Assembly (NCBI GenBank): GCA_025997475.1
Contig: BNUQ01000043.1
Coordinates: forward strand, 1-16,571
DNA: 16,571 nucleotides
Source: Planctomycetales bacterium
GTDB taxonomy: Bacteria; Planctomycetota; SZUA-567
Direction: 5' to 3'
In this document: piece by piece, positions 1 through 16,571 of the stretch
Layout of the letters: the number at the start of each line of letters is the position of its first letter
How positions within the stretch are numbered: position 1 is the stretch's first letter
Notes under the pieces: model-generated
What the model saw: the letters and a program-made list of their open reading frames with translations, nothing else
What the model was told of the DNA's origin: nothing
Databases searched by the model: none
Made by a program: the position numbers and the translations under genes

Positions 1-240
1 AGGGCAACGCCCCAATCGTAGGCGATATGGCGCATCGTCCGATACTCGCGCAGATATTGCAACGTAATGGCGAGTTTATCGGCCACTTTTAACTTTGGCG
101 GACGCCCGCCGCGGCGGTGTTGTTGCCAGTGTTTTTTTTCGCAAGATGACGACCATCGCGGCGTAGGCGGACTTACTCACGCCGAAGAGGCGCTTGAAAT
201 CCGCGTCGCTTAACTTCTGCTGATTGGTAGGCTTTTTCAT
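1..240 (-). pseudogene. IS5-type transposase N-terminus, frame broken at an A8 run (partial)
   Basis: ATG at 240. The protein starts MKKPTNQQKLSDADFKRLFG and is followed by a helix-turn-helix-like segment. In the other copy (16333 onward) the frame continues through a basic stretch into LQYLREYRTMRHIAYDWGVA, typical of the N-terminal DNA-binding region of IS5-family transposases. Here the A run (T8 on the plus strand, 132-139) has eight bases where the right copy has seven, so frame 0 leads to an early stop near 90. Either this copy is mutated, or the family uses slippage at this run to join two frames, or it is a homopolymer error. Everything downstream of the shift is otherwise nearly identical to the right copy. 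Confidence 0.75.
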
Positions 241-308
241 GCCAACCAGTTATGCACTTTGCCACAACCACCGCAACCTATTTCTTACAACCGGTTATCG
301 AACAGGTC
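1..308 (-). mobile_element. IS5-type insertion sequence, 5' part, cut by window edge
   Basis: The element's outer end lies at 308 and its transposase reads leftward out of the window. Its terminus reads GACCTGTTCGATAACC on the minus strand, and a TA dinucleotide (309-310) follows it as the likely target duplication. The same sequence recurs inverted at 16265-16571 with four substitutions and one single-base length difference. TA target, an early poly-A run in the transposase and a short conserved terminus fit the IS427-like branch of the IS5 family, which often uses two overlapping reading frames. That assignment rests on the N-terminal protein sequence only, because the catalytic domain is outside the window. 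The element interrupts an IS630-type transposase at 311. Confidence 0.85.
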
Positions 309-310
309 TA

Positions 311-675
311 TTCACGAAAGCCGCTTTCGTCCACATAAATACGGTGTTCACGCGGCACGCGGGCGATTTGTTTCAGGTGTTTTTCGCGTTGCTCCGGCGT
401 GGCTTCGCGGTAGCGGGTCGTTTTTTTTTATGGGTAACGCCGAGCCGGTTGAGCGCGCGCCAGACCCCGCTTTCCGAGCAATGGAAGTGCGTCGCCATCT
501 CCCGCAAGTAGTCGTCAGGGTGGGCGGCGATATATTCGCGGAGTTCCGCCGTCGGTATTTTTCGCGGGACGGCGGCGCGCGGTTGCGAGCACAACGAGCC
601 GGTAGTCGCGAGTTGTTGGCGCCAATTATAGACGGTGGTGCGACCGACTTTGAAATGCTCGCAGGCGTCGCGCAT
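311..675 (-). pseudogene. IS630-family transposase remnant, frameshifted and interrupted by IS
   Basis: From ATG at 675 the first frame encodes about 100 residues: a helix-turn-helix (GRTTVYNWRQQL) and a second HTH (HCSESGVWRALNRLG), ending HKKKRPATAK. At a run of nine A on the minus strand (421-429) a shift into the neighbouring frame gives HKKKTTRYREATPEQREKHL and then HRIYVDESGF, the IS630 motif carrying the first catalytic Asp. This is one transposase split over two frames; several IS630 members are known to use slippage or frameshifting at A runs. Directly after GFRE the IS5-type copy begins at 308-310, turning GAA-TA(C/T) into GAA-TAG. The rest of the DDE domain is absent. The copy is certainly inactive; whether the A9 shift was once programmed is unknown. 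Confidence 0.85.
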
Positions 676-3664: not shown

Positions 3665-3784
3665 AAGTTACGCGCAAAAATAAGAAATTTCCACCGCCCG
3701 GTTGCCAAAGGCGCGCGCGGTAAAAACCGTCGTATTGGGCGCGACTTATTCGCCTTCGCGGTGAAAAACATCTAAAAAAATCCG
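3665..3784. repeat. Dispersed hairpin-type repeat, copy 1 (companion of the 3785 element)
   Basis: This matches 14141-14255 over almost its whole length: AATAAGAAATTT, then ACCGCC, GCCAAAGGCGCGCG, and TCGCCTTCGCGGTGAAAAA, CATCTAAAAAA, TCCG. The ends ACCGC and GCGGT are inverted, so each copy can fold. Both copies sit immediately left of the same palindromic element. Differences are scattered substitutions and short indels, consistent with an old duplication. Confidence 0.7.
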
Positions 3785-3963
3785 CTCTATTCAATTGCCA
3801 CGCCCTTTAGGGCGTGGTCGGCGTTTTTTTAGAAATGGGCTTTAGCCCAAATAACGATTCGGCTAAAGCCGATTGAAGAGACCACATTTTTTATTTGGGC
3901 TAAAGCCCGTTTATTTTTTTTGTCCGCGCACCACGCCTTAAAAGGCGTGGCAATTGAATAGAG
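3785..3963. repeat. Nested-palindrome element (BIME/MITE-like), complete copy
   Basis: Terminal inverted repeats of 20 bp (CTCTATTCAATTGCCACGCC at 3785-3804, its complement at 3944-3963) each run into a hairpin (CCACGCCC-TTTA-GGGCGTGG at 3798-3817; CCACGCC-TTAAAA-GGCGTGG at 3931-3950). Inside is a second perfect 18-bp inverted repeat (3837-3854 and 3891-3908), whose arms are themselves palindromic (GGGCTTTAGCCC). At the centre is TCGGCT-AA-AGCCGA (3859-3872). A right half recurs at 6762-6891 and a left half at 14256-14322. It ends 62 bases before the infC start. There is no coding capacity; it is either a non-autonomous transposon or a REP-type composite mobilised in trans. Confidence 0.8.
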
Positions 3964-6621: not shown

Positions 6622-6761
6622 GTGACAAAAATGCACCCGCTAATAACTATTTTTCGTAGCCGGATTTCTCACCGAGTATCGCCGCGAAAGATTCATTGGC
6701 GATATTTTTTACGGCGACGAAATCGGCGCAACGATGCGTGTCGTCAGTGTCTCTCCAAAAA
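6622..6761. other. Gene-free stretch, possible degraded gene fragment
   Basis: No supported gene. One plus-strand frame (about 6657-6750) stays open and reads FLTEYRRERFIGDIFYGDEIGATMRVVSVSP, running straight into the repeat at 6762. It has no start codon or ribosome site and is not recognised, so it is at most a remnant cut by the repeat. Confidence 0.3.
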
Positions 6762-6891
6762 AGGGCTTTAGCCCAAACAATAATTCGGCTAAAGCCGATT
6801 GGGATGAGACCACATTTTTATTTAGGGACCAAAGCCCGTTTATTTTTTTATCCGCTCACCACGCCTTAAAAGGCGTGGCAATTGAATAGAG
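6762..6891. repeat. Nested-palindrome element, right-half copy
   Basis: Begins at GGGCTTTAGCCCAAA and matches 3837-3963 of the complete copy with scattered changes. It includes TTCGGCTAAAGCCGATT, GAGACCACATTTTT, CCACGCC-TTAAAA-GGCGTGG and the terminal CAATTGAATAGAG. The left terminal repeat and first hairpin are missing. The internal palindrome arm at AGGGACCAAAGCCC has decayed relative to the complete copy. Confidence 0.8.
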
Positions 6892-6980
6892 CGTCCTACT
6901 CCAAGCCGGCGAATCCAAACCAACACGCCGTTCATCGCGCCATCATTGGGGCTAAAGTTGGCGCTCTCTCGTAAGTCCAC

Positions 6981-7638: not shown

Positions 7639-10128
7639 TTACGCTTTGTCCAACGGCGTGAAAACGTATTGGTCGAGCCGGAGTTTTTCATCGGCGGCGA
7701 CCACGATTTTCCGCTGAAATTCGGTTTCCAATTCGAGCAATTTTTGGCGCAGTTCGTTGGCAATCGTCAGCGCCGCGCGCGGGTGGAAGGTTACGCGCAC
7801 GTCCGCCCCTTTGCCGAGTTCGGCGCGGAGTTTGCGGACAAATTCGGCGCCGAGCGATTCCGGCTTGCGGCATTTGCCCGACCCGCCGCAATACGGGCAA
7901 CTTTGATAATGCGCCAAGTGCAAACTCTGCCGCAAGCGTTGGCGCGTCATTTCCATAATGCCCAAGCGCGAAATCGGCAAAATGGTAATCCGCGCGCGGT
8001 CGCTTTTGGTCGCCGCCCGCATCGCGTCCTCGACCTCGCGCTGGTCGGCGGCGTGTTCCATATCGATAAAATCAATCATCACCAAGCCGCCCATATCGCG
8101 CAAACGCAACTGCCGCGCAATCGCCGCCGCCGCTTCGAGATTGGTTTTCTTAATCATTTCGCGCGACGATTCCGCCTTCAACATTTTGCCGGTGTTGACG
8201 TCAATCGCCACCAGCGCCTCGGTTTGCTGAATCAAAATCTCGCCGCCGCTCGGCAGTTTGACCGCCTCGTCAAACAATTTTTCAATATCGTCTTCGACCT
8301 TATACGCCGCCAGCAACGGCTCGCGCTTGTCGTAAAGCCGCGTCCGCTGATAAAAATCCGGCATCATTCGTTTGATGAACGCCACCGCTTTCGCGTATTC
8401 TTCGCGCCGGTCGATAAACAACTCGTCGAGCGAATCGTTGCAATAGTCGCGAATGGCGCGAATCGTCAATTCGTTTTCGTGATACAACAATTCCGGCGAC
8501 TTCGCCTTGCGCGTCCGCTCGCAAATTTCCTGCCAGAGTTCCGTCAGCGCGTTTAAGTCCAACTGCAACTCTTCCGCGCCGTGTCCCAAGCCCGCCGTGC
8601 GAATAATAAAACCCATATCTTTCGGCGGCGACAGTTTCGCGAGTTCGCGCCGCAGTTCGCGCCGCTGATTTTCGTTGGTGATTTTTTTGCTCACGCCGCG
8701 CGTGTGGCTCGCCGGCATCAACACGAGATAGCGCCCCGGCAACGAGATGTAAGTCGTAACGCTCGGTCCCTTCGTCGGCAACGCCTCGCGCGTGATTTGC
8801 ACCAACAATTCCTGCCCGTCGGCGAGCATATCGTTGATTTTCATAAACTGCGGATTCGTCGGCGCTTTTTTGCGGCGGCGCGTCAAAATATCCTCATAGC
8901 CGCCGAACGGCGGAATCACGTCGTCAACGTGCAAAAAGGCGTGTTTTTCACTGCCGATGTCGATGAACGCCGCCTGTAAATTCGGCTGAATGTTGACGAC
9001 GCGCCCTTTGAAAATGTTGCCGTGCACAAACTGCCCGCCGGCTCTCTCAATGTAAAGTTCCTCTAAACCGCTGTTGCCGATAATCGCCACGCGCGCTTGC
9101 TCGGCGTCGATGACGTTGAGCAACATTTTCCGCCCCGTCGGCTGGCGCGGCTTTTTCGGCTCGGATTTTTTCTCGCGGTCTTTCGGCGGCGGCGGCGTTT
9201 CGGTAATCGCATCGGCGGCGGCAATGTCGAGCGATTCGCGATTAGCCGGTGCGGTCGCGTTTGGCGCGGCCACCGCGGGCAATTTTTCATTATTCGCGGC
9301 GGGAGCGGTTAGCGCCTCCGGCGCAATTTCGGCTGTCGATTGCGTGGTCGTCAGCGCGGGGACGACCGTTTTTTCCGGCGCGGCAAACGGCGGTTCGCCG
9401 ACCGCCGTTTCCGCACCGACCGGATTTTCAGGGACGCCGGCGGACGCCGGATAAGCCGCCCGCCAATTGCCGGACGCGCGGCGCGCTTCGTCGTCGCCGG
9501 TATTTTTGCGCCCTTTCCACAACCAGCGGCGCGACGGCGAGGCGGCGTTGTTGACCGGCGGCAACGCGGTCGGCGTCGAGGTAATTGACGGCGGCTTGGT
9601 CGGATTATTTGCCGACGACGGGTTTTCCGCCGTCGCAATTTTGACCGGCGCGGCGACCGGCGCGGTAATCGGTGACGCATTCGGCGAAATCGTCGGCGCG
9701 GAAATCACCGGTGAAGTCGGCGGCGGCGCGATTTTTGCCGCTTGCGGTCGGCGTCCGCGCCGGCGCGAATTGTTTTTACGCGGCGCATTTTGGGCGGGCG
9801 CGTTAGCGGGCGCGATTGTCTGCGTTGATGGCGTTGTCTGCGTTGGCGGCGACGACGACGCGGTAATTCTCGGCGGAGTCGCCGGCATAACGGCGGGCGC
9901 GGGCGGCGCGATTTTTACATTTCTTTTGCCGGCGGGGCGCGGTAGCGCCCGCGTTGGCGGTTGCGGCGAATTTGTCGCCACGGGCGCCGCGGGCGACGCG
10001 CTCGGCTTTTTTACGGCGTTTTTGCGGGGGGCGGGGAGGAGATGCAATTCTTTCGCAACATTTTTTTTCGCCGGTCGGCGCGCCGGTTTGGTCGGGGCGG
10101 GCGCGCCGGAAGTAATTTCGTCAGACAC
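7639..10128 (-). CDS. rne: Ribonuclease E/G family endoribonuclease with long N-terminal extension
   Basis: 829 residues. The catalytic half (about 333-829) starts KMLLNVIDAEQARVAIIGNSGLEELYIER and contains the S1 RNA-binding insert (FVHGNIFKGRVVNIQPNLQAAFIDIG, HAFLHVDD) followed by an RNase H-like domain. The Mg2+-binding aspartates correspond to Asp643 in VAIDVNTGK and Asp686 in GLVMIDFIDM. CPYCGGSGKC (744-753) is the zinc-link that makes the dimer interface. Residues 1-332 are low-complexity Ala/Pro/Thr with basic patches (SRRRGRRPQ at 121-129), taking the place of the C-terminal scaffold of Escherichia coli RNase E. The enzyme makes single-strand cuts in mRNA and in rRNA/tRNA precursors. 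The start is GTG at 10128, preceded by AAAGGAAAATTTAA; no ATG fits. It lies downstream of adk, separated by a MITE. Confidence 0.93.
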   Translation of the reverse strand: MSDEITSGAPAPTKPARRPAKKNVAKELHLLPAPRKNAVKKPSASPAAPVATNSPQPPTRALPRPAGKRNVKIAPPAPAVMPATPPRITASSSPPTQTTPSTQTIAPANAPAQNAPRKNNSRRRGRRPQAAKIAPPPTSPVISAPTISPNASPITAPVAAPVKIATAENPSSANNPTKPPSITSTPTALPPVNNAASPSRRWLWKGRKNTGDDEARRASGNWRAAYPASAGVPENPVGAETAVGEPPFAAPEKTVVPALTTTQSTAEIAPEALTAPAANNEKLPAVAAPNATAPANRESLDIAAADAITETPPPPKDREKKSEPKKPRQPTGRKMLLNVIDAEQARVAIIGNSGLEELYIERAGGQFVHGNIFKGRVVNIQPNLQAAFIDIGSEKHAFLHVDDVIPPFGGYEDILTRRRKKAPTNPQFMKINDMLADGQELLVQITREALPTKGPSVTTYISLPGRYLVLMPASHTRGVSKKITNENQRRELRRELAKLSPPKDMGFIIRTAGLGHGAEELQLDLNALTELWQEICERTRKAKSPELLYHENELTIRAIRDYCNDSLDELFIDRREEYAKAVAFIKRMMPDFYQRTRLYDKREPLLAAYKVEDDIEKLFDEAVKLPSGGEILIQQTEALVAIDVNTGKMLKAESSREMIKKTNLEAAAAIARQLRLRDMGGLVMIDFIDMEHAADQREVEDAMRAATKSDRARITILPISRLGIMEMTRQRLRQSLHLAHYQSCPYCGGSGKCRKPESLGAEFVRKLRAELGKGADVRVTFHPRAALTIANELRQKLLELETEFQRKIVVAADEKLRLDQYVFTPLDKA

Positions 10129-10178: not shown

Positions 10179-10207
10179 ATTATTTATTAGACCTGTTCGA
10201 CAACCAA
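10179..10207 (-). promoter_or_regulatory. Possible hybrid MITE/host promoter facing rne
   Basis: On the minus strand TTGGTT inside the MITE end (10207-10202), a 17-bp spacer and AATAAT in the host flank (10184-10179) could form an outward promoter for the RNase gene. The -35 match is modest; this is a sequence-only suggestion. Confidence 0.3.
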
Positions 10208-10350
10208 TTCGCGGCAAATTTTCGGCTAATTTTCCGTCCCGCCGCGTCAAAATTCCTTGCAATACTCTCGGTATTGCTTCGTCATTTTTCCTTGCGGCAC
10301 GAAAAATTAGACACGAACATTTACTCGCTCTTGGTTGCCGAACAGGTCTA
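10188..10350. mobile_element. MITE related to the IS5-type element at the window ends
   Basis: TAGACCTGTTCGACAACCAA at 10188 is inverted as TTGGTTGCCGAACAGGTCTA ending at 10350, with one mismatch in 20. GACCTGTTCG plus the following AACC are shared with the IS copies at 308 and 16265, so this is a non-autonomous relative. The TA at each edge is the probable target duplication. Inside, GCAATAC-TCTCG-GTATTGC forms a hairpin. There is no coding capacity. It lies between adk and rne, and its right edge supplies the adk stop codon. Confidence 0.85.
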
Positions 10351-11001
10351 TTTGATTTTCGCCAACGCCGTTAGCACTTCTTTTTTCACCGCGTCAATCG
10401 GCTGGGAGCCGTCCACGGCGAGGTAGTGAACGCCGGATTTCTTGCCGAGTTTTTGATAATAATCTTTCAGCACTTCGGTCATTTTGTGATACGCTTTCAG
10501 CCGCTCGCGGATAACGTCCTCGTGGTCGTCGGGGCGTTGGATTAAATCCTCGCCGGTCAAATCGTCTTTGCCGGCGACGCGCGGCGGATGGTGCTTGACG
10601 TGATACGTGCGTCCCGACGCCGGATGGATAAACCGCCCCGACAAGCGTTGCACGATGTCGGCGTCCGGCACCGCCATTTCGATGACCGCGTCGATTTTAA
10701 CGCCGGCTTTTTGCACGGCTTCGGCTTGGGCGAGCGTGCGCGGAAAACCGTCGAACAAAAAACCGTTGGCGCAGTCCGGCGCCGCGATGCGGGCGGTAAC
10801 GAGATTGACGATTAAATCGTCGCCGACGAATTTACCGGCGTTGATGAGGGACTGCGCTTGTTTGCCCAACTCCGAGCCGGCGGCAATCGCGGCGCGCAAC
10901 ATATCGCCGGTGGAAATCTGCTTGATTTTGAACTGTTCGGTGATGAAGTGGGCTTGCGTCCCTTTACCGGCGCCGGGCGGTCCGAGCAGAATGAGTTTCA
11001 T
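10348..11001 (-). CDS. adk: Adenylate kinase
   Basis: 217 residues, close to the usual 214. The enzyme catalyses reversible phosphoryl transfer between two ADP and ATP plus AMP in the cytosol. Visible: P-loop [10 protein letters not shown] (7-16), AMP-binding region [11 protein letters not shown], and [15 protein letters not shown]. The long LID ([19 protein letters not shown]) carries no Cys4 zinc site, so this is the non-zinc type. [13 protein letters not shown] follows and contributes the LID/CORE arginines. ATG at 11001 was chosen because [10 protein letters not shown] is the family N-terminus and AAGGA lies eight bases upstream; an upstream in-frame ATG would add 21 atypical residues. 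Its last codon AAA is followed by TAG, whose G is the first base of a MITE. A promoter lies 55 bases upstream. Confidence 0.96.
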
Positions 11002-11055: not shown

Positions 11056-11083
11056 ATTATACAAGCGCCGCGCGCCAGATAAA
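11056..11083 (-). promoter_or_regulatory. adk promoter
   Basis: Perfect -10 TATAAT on the minus strand (11061-11056) with a weak -35 TTTATC (11083-11078), 16-bp spacing, about 50 bases before the adk start. The region 11084-11180 up to the next repeat shows nothing else. Confidence 0.55.
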
Positions 11084-14140: not shown

Positions 14141-14255
14141 TTACGCGAAAAAATAAGAAATTTTTACCGCCAAGTCGCCAAAGGCGCGCGAAGGTAGAAA
14201 TCGTCATTATCTGGCGCGGTCGCCTTCGCGGTGAAAAAAACATCTAAAAAATCCG
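14141..14255. repeat. Dispersed hairpin-type repeat, copy 2
   Basis: Counterpart of 3665-3784: AATAAGAAATTTTTACCGCC, then GCCAAAGGCGCGCG, GGCGCGGTCGCCTTCGCGGTG, AAAAA, CATCTAAAAAATCCG. TTTTTACCGC and GCGGTGAAAAA are inverted ends. It begins about 20 bases after the GspE-like stop codon and abuts the next element exactly as in copy 1. Confidence 0.7.
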
Positions 14256-14322
14256 CTCTATTCAATTGCCACGCCCTTTAGGGCGTGGTAGGCGGTCAAA
14301 AAGAAAAGGGCTTTAGCCCAAA
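14256..14322. repeat. Nested-palindrome element, left-half copy
   Basis: CTCTATTCAATTGCCACGCC with the CCACGCCC-TTTA-GGGCGTGG hairpin and GGGCTTTAGCCCAAA, matching the first part of 3785-3963. At the point where the complete copy continues TAACG, the IS630 element starts at TATACTC. The right half is not found beyond the IS and MITE, so it was lost or never present. Confidence 0.75.
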
Positions 14323-15486
14323 TATACTCAAGGCGAATTGTTTTGCGGAAAGTCACGTTGGCGACGGCAAGCGTTTCTTGATCGGAGAAACGATGTCGAA
14401 TTTTAGCGTCAGCAACGTTTTCAGGTCCTCCGCAAAATCGCCCGCGGACAACCGAAAGAAAAATTCGCGCAGGGCACCTCGAAAGCCCCAAAATTTCTCG
14501 TAATAACGGTTATTCGTTACTTGCTGATGCATAAATCGCCACAACCGCTCAATCAAATTCAAATTCGGCGAATACGGTGGGAAAAAGTCCAACTTTATCC
14601 GCGAGGTCTCCAAATACTCGCGCACTAATTTCGAGCGGTAATAACGCGCATTGTCCGCAAAAACGCCGATCGTTTCGGCCGTCGGATATTGCGCCTCGAT
14701 TTGGCGGAAAAGTTCGATGGTGGACTGCGCGTTGACCGTGTCGCTTTCTAACGCGAGGGCTTCGCGCGTCTCAATGTTCAGCGCGCCGTTGATATTTACC
14801 CGCTCGCGACCGGTGTTCGCCGGCACCGCAATCTTTTCGCCGCGCAAACCCCAGACCTTGGTCGGGCGCGGATTATGCGTCGGAGGCACGGCGTCGAGAT
14901 AAATGACCGGCGTTTCCGGCGCTTTATGCGCCAATAAATCGGTGATTTTTTCGACAAATTCGCGTTGCGCCTGCGGGTCGGCGTTGCCCGGCACCAAGAC
15001 CGTGTGCTTATACACGAAGTCCAAGCGATGCAATAAATCGCGCATTCCGCTGATGGAAAACTCGACGGCAAATTTTTCGCGACACCAATCAATCGCCGGT
15101 TGGACGGAAGACAACAAATTTTGATTTACCCATTCCCGGAGTTGCGATTCGGCGTCCGCGCTTAATTTGCCGTCGTAACCGTGATAATTATTGGCGAGAA
15201 GCGCTTCGAGCCCGCAGTTGATAAACGTCGCGTAATGGCTCCGCAAGGTATCGTCCGAGAGCAAAAACAATTCGGCGGCTTCGGCGAAAGAAAGTCCTTT
15301 GTCGAGCGCGAGGATAATTTTGATGCGGTCGGCGTAGCGCTTGGACGGCTCCAACCGATGACGGGAGGCAAGTTCCTGGCGCTGTTCGACGGTGAGAAAG
15401 TTAGCGATGGTTTTCATACGTTATTTTTTTATCTTTTGTCAGCACCAACGCAATCTTTCCCCAAAAAATAATTCGCTATTGGTATA
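14323..15486 (-). mobile_element. IS630-family insertion sequence, apparently intact
   Basis: About 1.16 kb, the typical IS630 size. The left end reads TATACTCAAGGCGAATTGTT, then GCGGAAAG and CGTTGG. The right end, on the minus strand, reads TATACCAATAGCGAATTATT, then GGGGAAAG and GCGTTGG, so imperfect inverted ends of roughly 40 bp are visible. TA dinucleotides at both ends agree with the TA target of IS630/Tc1-mariner elements. It carries one uninterrupted transposase. It sits between a left-half palindromic element and a 102-bp MITE with related ends. Confidence 0.85.
14353..15417 (-). CDS. IS630-family transposase
   Basis: 354 residues, full length. It catalyses cut-and-paste transposition at TA. 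The N-terminal part has two helix-turn-helix regions (SFAEAAELFLLSDDTLRSHYATF, 43-65; ISGMRDLLHRLDFVYKHT, 122-139). The DDE domain is complete: Asp175 in VIYLDAVPPTHN, Asp255 in IGVFADNARYY and Glu290 in FPPYSPNLNLIERLWRFM. The last two are separated by 34 residues, as is typical of IS630. Unlike the broken copy at 311-675 it is a single frame, and it belongs to a different subgroup. ATG at 15417 leads into MKTIANFLTVEQRQ; upstream is the IS right end, so its promoter must lie in the IS terminus or the adjoining MITE. Likely functional. Confidence 0.95.
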   Translation of the reverse strand: MKTIANFLTVEQRQELASRHRLEPSKRYADRIKIILALDKGLSFAEAAELFLLSDDTLRSHYATFINCGLEALLANNYHGYDGKLSADAESQLREWVNQNLLSSVQPAIDWCREKFAVEFSISGMRDLLHRLDFVYKHTVLVPGNADPQAQREFVEKITDLLAHKAPETPVIYLDAVPPTHNPRPTKVWGLRGEKIAVPANTGRERVNINGALNIETREALALESDTVNAQSTIELFRQIEAQYPTAETIGVFADNARYYRSKLVREYLETSRIKLDFFPPYSPNLNLIERLWRFMHQQVTNNRYYEKFWGFRGALREFFFRLSAGDFAEDLKTLLTLKFDIVSPIKKRLPSPT

Positions 15487-15586
15487 TACTCATTACGAAT
15501 TGGTTTGCGGGTTTATTTTACCGAAACGTGAACCGTTGTGTATTTACGCAAATGACTTTTCCGCAAACCAATTCGTAATGAGTATA
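15485..15586. mobile_element. 102-bp MITE with IS630-related ends
   Basis: Two perfect 26-bp inverted ends (TATACTCATTACGAATTGG and on to GCGG, 15485-15510; complement at 15561-15586) surround 50 bases without coding capacity. The ends match the left end of the adjoining IS630 element at 22 of 26 positions, so its transposase may mobilise it. It shares a TATATA junction with the IS. Confidence 0.85.
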
Positions 15587-15638: not shown

Positions 15639-16265
15639 ATGCCGTTTTATATTTCCGGGTTAATGGTTAATAATCCGCGCCCTAAAACCCCGCTTGATTT
15701 CAATAATATACCGGAAGGACGCTTGACTTCTTTGCGATTGAGTTTGGGCAACCACAACAACGCCATCACTGAGCCGGCAACGTCTAATATGCCGCGACAA
15801 GACAGAGTCGAGATATCTGATGAAGCCCAAAAGTGGAGTGAAGCGCACGGAAATCCGCTTTCTGTCACGCATCCCTACCAGACCTATCTTGACGCGCTCG
15901 CCGATATAGAACAATCAATTGCGACGATACTGAAAAAAAAAGGCATTCAAGTTGATGATAAGGAGTATTTGCGCCTTACGGTGAACGACGCGAATGAAAT
16001 TGCGGTCAATGCAGATAGTTATGTGAAAATATCCGCCAATAAGAAGTCCGCGATTGTGCAGGCGCTTAACGCCGCTAGCGGATTGGGAGAAAAAATCAAT
16101 CAATACAAAGAAATTTGCAATAAAATACCGATGTCTTATCGTAGCCAAGAAGTCAGTGTTCAAGGAGCAGTCGGTATCGACGATGTTGACCAAGAACCGG
16201 AATGGGTCAAACAGCGGCGGGCGAATATTTTAGAATTTGTCAGGCAACACCAAGAAAAACAATAG
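15639..16265 (+). CDS. Hypothetical protein, AT-richer, stop codon formed at IS junction
   Basis: 208 residues, unrecognised. MPFYISGLMVNNPRPKTPLD is followed by a likely disordered, Asn-rich region to about 50. A motif DRVEISDEAQKWSE (55-68) resembles the segment common in FlgM-like and other short regulatory proteins but is not diagnostic. The rest is helical (ALADIEQSIATILKKKGI, 86-103; NEIAVNADSYVKISANKKSAI, 119-139) and ends RANILEFVRQHQEKQ. No signal peptide or membrane segment. ATG at 15639 was chosen over an earlier ATG because GAGGAG lies six bases upstream. Codon use is more AT-rich than in the core genes. The TAG stop is completed by the first base of the IS at 16265, so the original C-terminus could be longer or could have ended at TAA. 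Confidence 0.7.
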   Translation: MPFYISGLMVNNPRPKTPLDFNNIPEGRLTSLRLSLGNHNNAITEPATSNMPRQDRVEISDEAQKWSEAHGNPLSVTHPYQTYLDALADIEQSIATILKKKGIQVDDKEYLRLTVNDANEIAVNADSYVKISANKKSAIVQALNAASGLGEKINQYKEICNKIPMSYRSQEVSVQGAVGIDDVDQEPEWVKQRRANILEFVRQHQEKQ

Positions 16266-16571
16266 ATCTGTTCGATAACCGGTTGTAAGAAATAGGTTGC
16301 GGTGGTTGTGGCAAAGTGCATAACTGGTTGGCATGAAAAAACCTACCAATCAGCAGAAGTTAAGCGACGCGGATTTCAAGCGCCTCTTTGGCGTGAGTAA
16401 GTCCGCCTACGCCGCGATGGTCGTCATCTTGCGAAAAAAACACCGGCAACAACACCGCCGCGGCGGGCGTCCGCCAAAGTTAAAAGTGGCCGATAAACTC
16501 GCCATTACGTTGCAATATCTGCGCGAGTATCGGACGATGCGCCATATCGCCTACGATTGGGGCGTTGCCCT
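16265..16571 (+). mobile_element. IS5-type insertion sequence, second copy, cut by window edge
   Basis: Begins GATCTGTTCGATAACC after TA at 16263-16264 and runs to the end of the window, its transposase reading outward. It is the inverted counterpart of 1-308, with four substitutions and seven instead of eight A in the run at 16434-16440. The last 127 bases are identical to the complement of the first 127. Confidence 0.85.
16333..16571 (+). CDS. IS5-type transposase, N-terminal part (runs off the window)
   Basis: 79 complete codons in view. MKKPTNQQKLSDADFKRLFG is followed by SKSAYAAMVVILRKKHRQQHRRGGRPPK, a helical DNA-binding part with a basic linker, and LKVADKLAITLQYLREYRTMRHIAYDWGVA, which matches the helix-turn-helix region preceding the DDE domain in IS5-family transposases. 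The catalytic residues are beyond the window. ATG at 16333 was chosen by agreement with the left copy; its ribosome site is poor (GGTTGGC), as is common in IS. With seven A in the run the frame stays open, whereas the left copy is shifted. Confidence 0.85.
   Translation, partial: MKKPTNQQKLSDADFKRLFGVSKSAYAAMVVILRKKHRQQHRRGGRPPKLKVADKLAITLQYLREYRTMRHIAYDWGVA

Follow-up and report, generated by a model that had tools for sequence, protein, structure and literature searches.

A stop codon that lies partly inside a repeat raises two questions: how can a mobile element enter the end of a gene without altering its protein, and is such an element drawn to stop codons or simply tolerated there? Both arise at the adenylate kinase gene adk of a Planctomycetales bacterium, on contig C43, part of a genome bin of 2.39 Mb with a completeness of 84.57%. 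The window is the whole stretch of DNA that was analysed, 16,571 nucleotides in length. On its minus strand adk is followed by a palindromic insert and then by the RNase E/G gene rne.

The adk locus and the borders of the element

The features at the adk stop codon and around it are as follows.

10351..11001, minus strand: adk (adenylate kinase), coding part; Pfam ADK 1.3e-51; 95% identical to the orthologue of the same-genus genome G001
10348..10350, minus strand: adk stop codon TAG, with T from the target and AG from the element
10350..10352, plus strand: right 3-bp target duplication, ATT (AAT on the adk strand)
10189..10349, no strand assigned: MITE copy, 161 bp, AGACCTGTTCGACAACC ... GGTTGCCGAACAGGTCT, a near-complete palindrome; terminal A and T in 77/79 copies
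10186..10188, plus strand: left 3-bp target duplication, ATT
7639..10128, minus strand: RNase E/G gene (rne), downstream of adk; Pfam RNase_E_G 3.1e-98

The ATG at 11001 is the start chosen here for adk, while the listed open reading frame begins at 11064. Among the 80 of 578 adk loci retained from named genomes, the best identity is at most 63%; three of the 80 are from Planctomycetota, and the majority are from Pseudomonas and other proteobacteria.

The adk frame terminates in ATC AAA TAG and the G of this stop belongs to the repeat, as the original prediction had stated. The palindromic insert between adk and rne that it described is likewise real, and the repeat belongs to a genuine multi-copy family, but the borders given for it (10190-10348, 159 bp) are corrected here to 10189-10349 (161 bp). 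The element contributes to the rebuilt stop as proposed, with two bases (A and G) instead of the G only. Removal of the element and one triplet leaves ATC AAA TAA ATA ATC on the minus strand, in which the proposed ancestral TAA is retained and the proposed context ATC AAA TAA TAA is not. The presumed change from TAA to TAG at adk has the duplicated triplet alone as its basis. The interval 10190-10348 is predicted to fold into a single hairpin of -84.4 kcal/mol (z -12).

Copies of the element and their distribution

A DNA search for the element, in which 40 of 140 candidates were scored, matched its positions 1-159 at no fewer than 40 distinct places. A terminal pattern allowing up to 3 mismatches found 168 ends, 100 of them among the matches listed, against 0 for the reversed control, and a pattern for the centre of the element found 88 places. 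Flanks were fetched for 108 matches, reduced to 94 without duplicates and to 79 full-length copies with at least 30 bp on either side. The 15 excluded copies were truncated, split, decayed or at contig ends, and included two second views at locus edges. The length is 161 bp in 74 of the 79, and the repeat is short, devoid of a transposase and bounded by inverted ends, as is typical of MITEs. An identical sister copy, taken as a sign of activity, exists for 17/79.

Among 60 genomes, its own (G000) included, the element was found only in its own genome and in G001, where 14 of 58 candidates were scored. Of the 392 genomes of the phylum, again counting its own, these two are likewise the sole ones with a match to an 18-base end pattern. 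None of the seven full G001 copies shares its flanks with any of the 79, which would mean that the insertions came later than the split of the two genomes or have been lost since. No match to the element was found among PLSDB plasmids, and two pattern matches were seen in viral contigs. One MITE copy (L165:2980-3251) is broken by another short insert. A reading frame through the MITE stays fully open in 74/79 copies, another is open in 40 and an opposite-strand frame in 33, although the copies are related and these counts are hence close to one observation; in 5000 shuffles of the MITE, one frame was fully open in 1195, two in 150 and three in 6.

Target site duplication

The left flanks mostly end in AATA or ATTA, and the right flanks mostly begin with TAAT or TATT. 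When the element is read as 161 bp, an identical triplet stands on both sides in 73/79 copies (ATT 38, AAT 33, GGT 1, ACT 1) and is absent in 6, so that the duplication has the constant length of 3 bp expected for a MITE. The form ANT accounts for 72 of the 73 identical triplets; ANT duplication is characteristic of the ISL2 group of the IS5 family. The original prediction had the element targeting TA. Read as 159 bp, it does have agreeing neighbouring dinucleotides in 76/79 copies, but this reading leaves the repeated outer bases unexplained. AAT or ATT stands on both sides in 73 copies, and the same triplet is found on both in 71 of these, whereas a TA target with free flanks would predict agreement in about half.

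Paralogous empty sites point in the same direction. Joining the flanks at the 3-bp duplication gave an uninterrupted paralogue for 18 of the 79 copies, with an ungapped best match in 14 of the 18; joining them at TA gave 9, of which one was ungapped. For the 19 queries with any paralogous match, the 3-bp reading scores higher in 17 and the TA reading in 2. Element-free sites in G001, available for four of the six further stop sites described below, fit the 3-bp join better at three and tie at one. Triplet agreement and empty sites together favour 3 bp over the TA duplication of the IS630/Tc1-mariner type, and the claim of TA targeting is abandoned.

Insertions at stop codons

For gene context, the element and one triplet were removed from each copy, and genes were called with an in-house codon model that had been trained on these very loci. 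Sixty-eight of the 79 copies are intergenic, in seven the target T opens a stop codon, and four fall in called genes. The distance to the stop of the gene concerned is 4-5 nt for one of these four and 27-28 nt for another; the remaining two are at the start of a call with a score of 40 and in a call with a score of 27. The AWT sites of the same loci divide into 3820 intergenic, 80 at stops and 8264 genic, and an AWT ends on the T of the stop in 80 of 210 called stops.

The seven stop copies lie at adk, rplC (with rpsJ immediately upstream), valS (Val_tRNA-synt_C) and the genes for a type III glutamine synthetase (GSIII), a KDO transferase, a PMT_2 protein and a DUF4292 protein. Three of these genes, adk, rplC and valS, are vital, and their presence among the 7/79 stop copies bears out the proposal that the element can enter gene-dense, essential regions without harm. 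The restored stop is TAA in five cases and already TAG in two, and the present stop is TAG in 7/7. With a T at the end of the triplet and AG at the start of the element, whichever side is read, TAG appears in one frame at every junction; in the T-first frame it is seen on one side in 78/79 copies and on the other in 77/79.

G001 provides element-free counterparts of several of these stops. Its valS and GSIII genes have TAA at the same codon with an ungapped alignment at the site, and TAA also stands in its rplC, where an A-run is one A shorter. Its DUF4292 gene has TAG, with a 15-base alignment gap directly after the target, in short repeats, where the two border models tie. The matches to the KDO transferase and PMT_2 genes stop short of the site. 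The proposal that TAA became TAG without a change to the protein is thus sustained by the duplication at adk and by the TAA ends of the element-free valS, GSIII and rplC. The original prediction had called for an empty adk-rne site in related strains. G001 adk does not run past this point, but it ends in AAA TAG instead of TAA, beside an unrelated insert of about 200 bp containing a different palindrome. This palindrome, in the same interval of G001 (L147:1293-1498), is also strong.

Is there a preference for stop codons?

An enrichment at stop codons had been proposed. Against all non-genic AWT sites, 7 stop insertions of 71 compare with 1.5 expected (p 0.0006), and a comparison with AWT sites 1-80 bp after stops gives odds of 3.6 (p 0.007). 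These two figures would suit a genuine bias towards stop codons or the 3' ends of genes, whether by targeting or by selection for TAG junctions, but we consider such a bias unlikely. Weighting by the flank preference (T before, A after) lifts the expectation to 3.5 (p 0.06), or to 2.8 (p 0.02) when the weights are trained without the stop copies, and relative to AWT sites 1-20 bp after stops the odds are 2.3 (p 0.08). Tandem, divergent and convergent contexts, at 51:13:9 with 2 not assigned, match the null of 2483:635:431 with 351 not assigned. The excess over the intergenic expectation is mostly AT-rich site preference; about a two-fold excess at stops is left after weighting, which may be a modest real effect. 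The boundary at the stop is sharp, with 7/80 AWT sites occupied at the T of the stop and 1/122 in the final 9 nt of genes (p 0.007). We read the pattern as tolerance plus target preference, with the excess over plain intergenic sites upheld and a special enrichment weakly supported.

Probable partner insertion sequence

Pieces of an insertion sequence (IS) run off both ends of the contig.

1..309, minus strand: IS end running off the contig, AGACCTGTTCGATAACCGG..., with a transposase start whose frame is broken in an A-run
310..312, plus strand: ATT adjoining the left IS end
16264..16571, plus strand: counterpart end of this IS, likewise running off the contig, AGATCTGTTCGATAACCGG..., with the transposase N-terminus (HTH_Tnp_4 6.7e-9); AAT at 16261-16263

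The two pieces (1-309 minus and 16264-16571 plus) are 98% alike and represent outward-facing ends of one IS, copies of which probably broke the assembly here. A third copy, on contig C79 (L262:235-715), has lost internal sequence but retains both ends and a DDE_Tnp_4 C-terminus, and is flanked by AAT and ATT. Its ends equal the commonest MITE ends crosswise over 17 bases each, including the base that distinguishes the two ends. An exact match to IRR was found for 70/79 MITE left ends, and an exact match to IRL for 38/79 right ends; a variant right end, AGACCTGTTCTAAACCT, with a poorer fit to the IS end, occurs in 33/79. In the adk copy, the left end is exact and the right end, AGACCTGTTCGGCAACC, matches at 15/17 bases, with 2/17 differing from the IS end. 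The MITE therefore has ends in common, at 17/17 bases of the L262 copy, with a transposase-bearing element of the same genome whose transposase pieces are all broken or cut. Outside its ends, the MITE has no significant match to the available IS pieces. No intact autonomous copy was seen among the two contig-end pieces (one of them frameshifted) and the one internally deleted copy.

HTH_Tnp_4 and DDE_Tnp_4 score above their cut-offs in the IS pieces. The best NCBIfam match is NF033581 (IS5_4), at 2.6e-6 and 7.4e-12, with 27 and 45 bits for these partial queries against a full-length cut-off of 140; the right-hand piece, which holds the transposase start, is among the partial matches under the cut-off. 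Since the ends are shared, the mobiliser of the MITE is likely to be the IS at both contig ends, with its IS5-like transposase pieces.

Other candidates for the partner were set aside. PF01609 and PF13586 transposases in G000 and G001 have no matching ends beside them, and at L201 a solo matching end lies about 1.2 kb from a transposase piece, beyond another gene. At L210, L211 and several places in G001, solo ends begin like the repeat but continue into another interior, and inspection of these stretches by eye revealed no recognised transposase. The solo sequence AGACCTGTTCG occurs at L210:1502, L201:1775 and L211:1502, and also at L237, L239, L241, L250 and L255, each time followed by a different interior, often GAAAGAAAGAGC-like sequence with AT-rich repeats; these copies are possibly another family or decayed ends. 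Another repeat family (GCTCTATTCAATTGCCACGCC...) is present in the window at 3783-3963, 6740-6893 and 14246-14346, and several MITE copies are nested within it. The window also contains an IS630-family transposase gene (14353-15417, minus strand), between other inverted repeats (TATACTC...) at 14323-14351 and 15558-15586.

Proposed explanation and alternatives

We hold with good confidence that the repeat is a non-autonomous MITE moved by an IS5-like IS, which enters ANT with a 3-bp duplication and rebuilds stop codons as a by-product. Judging from the shared ends, the MITE would be mobilised in trans by the transposase of the IS, which would recognise the ends AGACCTGTTCGAYAACC. The target of insertion would be an ANT triplet, in nearly all cases AAT or ATT and best with Ts before and As after, and insertion would generate the 3-bp duplication that is seen directly in the flanks. 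In a stop codon that starts with the target T, TAG results or is preserved and the protein is unchanged, as the sequences of the seven copies bear out. The distribution of copies suggests that selection would remove insertions inside genes, while those at stops would be tolerated like intergenic ones. The rebuilding of stops would then follow from the end sequence and the target preference, with no guidance to stop codons, and is probably harmless.

It is also conceivable, if rather improbable, that the ANT target and the AG termini, which give TAG at both junctions, were selected as a safe-landing design for the stops of vital operons; if true, this design would let the element persist in compact genomes.

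Retention of the hairpin between adk and rne as an operon regulator (a terminator, or an RNase III or RNase E site) is very doubtful: the fold is very stable, the next gene encodes RNase E/G and G001 holds a different palindromic insert in the same interval, but none of the seven full G001 copies is at a site common to the 79, no Rfam match was found in the window at gathering scores, and the gene contexts match the null. Least credible is a 159-bp element of IS630/Tc1-like type that begins with G and targets TA. The agreeing TA dinucleotides (76/79) and the IS630-family transposase in the window could be cited for it, but a direct repeat (AAT..AAT or ATT..ATT) extends past the TA in 71/73 copies, the empty sites mostly require 3-bp gaps (TA better in 2/19 paralogous sites), the repeats flanking the IS630-like gene differ from those of the MITE, and the elements that share the MITE ends carry other transposase pieces.

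Relation to known elements and significance

The MITE and its proposed partner resemble IS5-family ISs and their MITEs in the HTH_Tnp_4 and DDE_Tnp_4 pieces with IS5_4 as the best NCBIfam match, in the 3-bp ANT duplication and in the cross-matching 17-bp ends. They differ in that the transposase is known here from pieces only, and in that the right ends of 33/79 MITE copies are of the variant type.

Repeats that supply stop codons are already known (PMC3049150). In 36 reported cases the stop of an upstream gene is encoded by a BOX element, an interspersed repeat of Streptococcus pneumoniae, with no strong sign that the genes were truncated (PMC3049150). The present repeat likewise supplies the stop of an upstream gene, but it is a different element, and the sections of the BOX description drawn on here contain no rule by which target and element end together re-create a stop at its original codon (PMC3049150). 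Like RUP and Correia/NEMIS, it is a short MITE-like repeat found mostly between genes (PMC2229807). Pneumococcal RUP has been linked to IS630-Spn1 and TA targets, unlike the ANT target and IS5-like partner here (PMC2229807). No description of the element or of the ANT-plus-AG rule was found in the open-licence literature searched.

As a caution, a TA at both ends of an element may consist of a target T and an element A, and not of a TA duplication. The end sequence and the target triplet jointly decide whether a hit in a stop codon is silent, which is illustrated here with element-free sites in a relative. The resulting rule is simple, requiring a target that ends in T and an element that starts with AG, AA or GA, and it lends itself to comparison across IS families.
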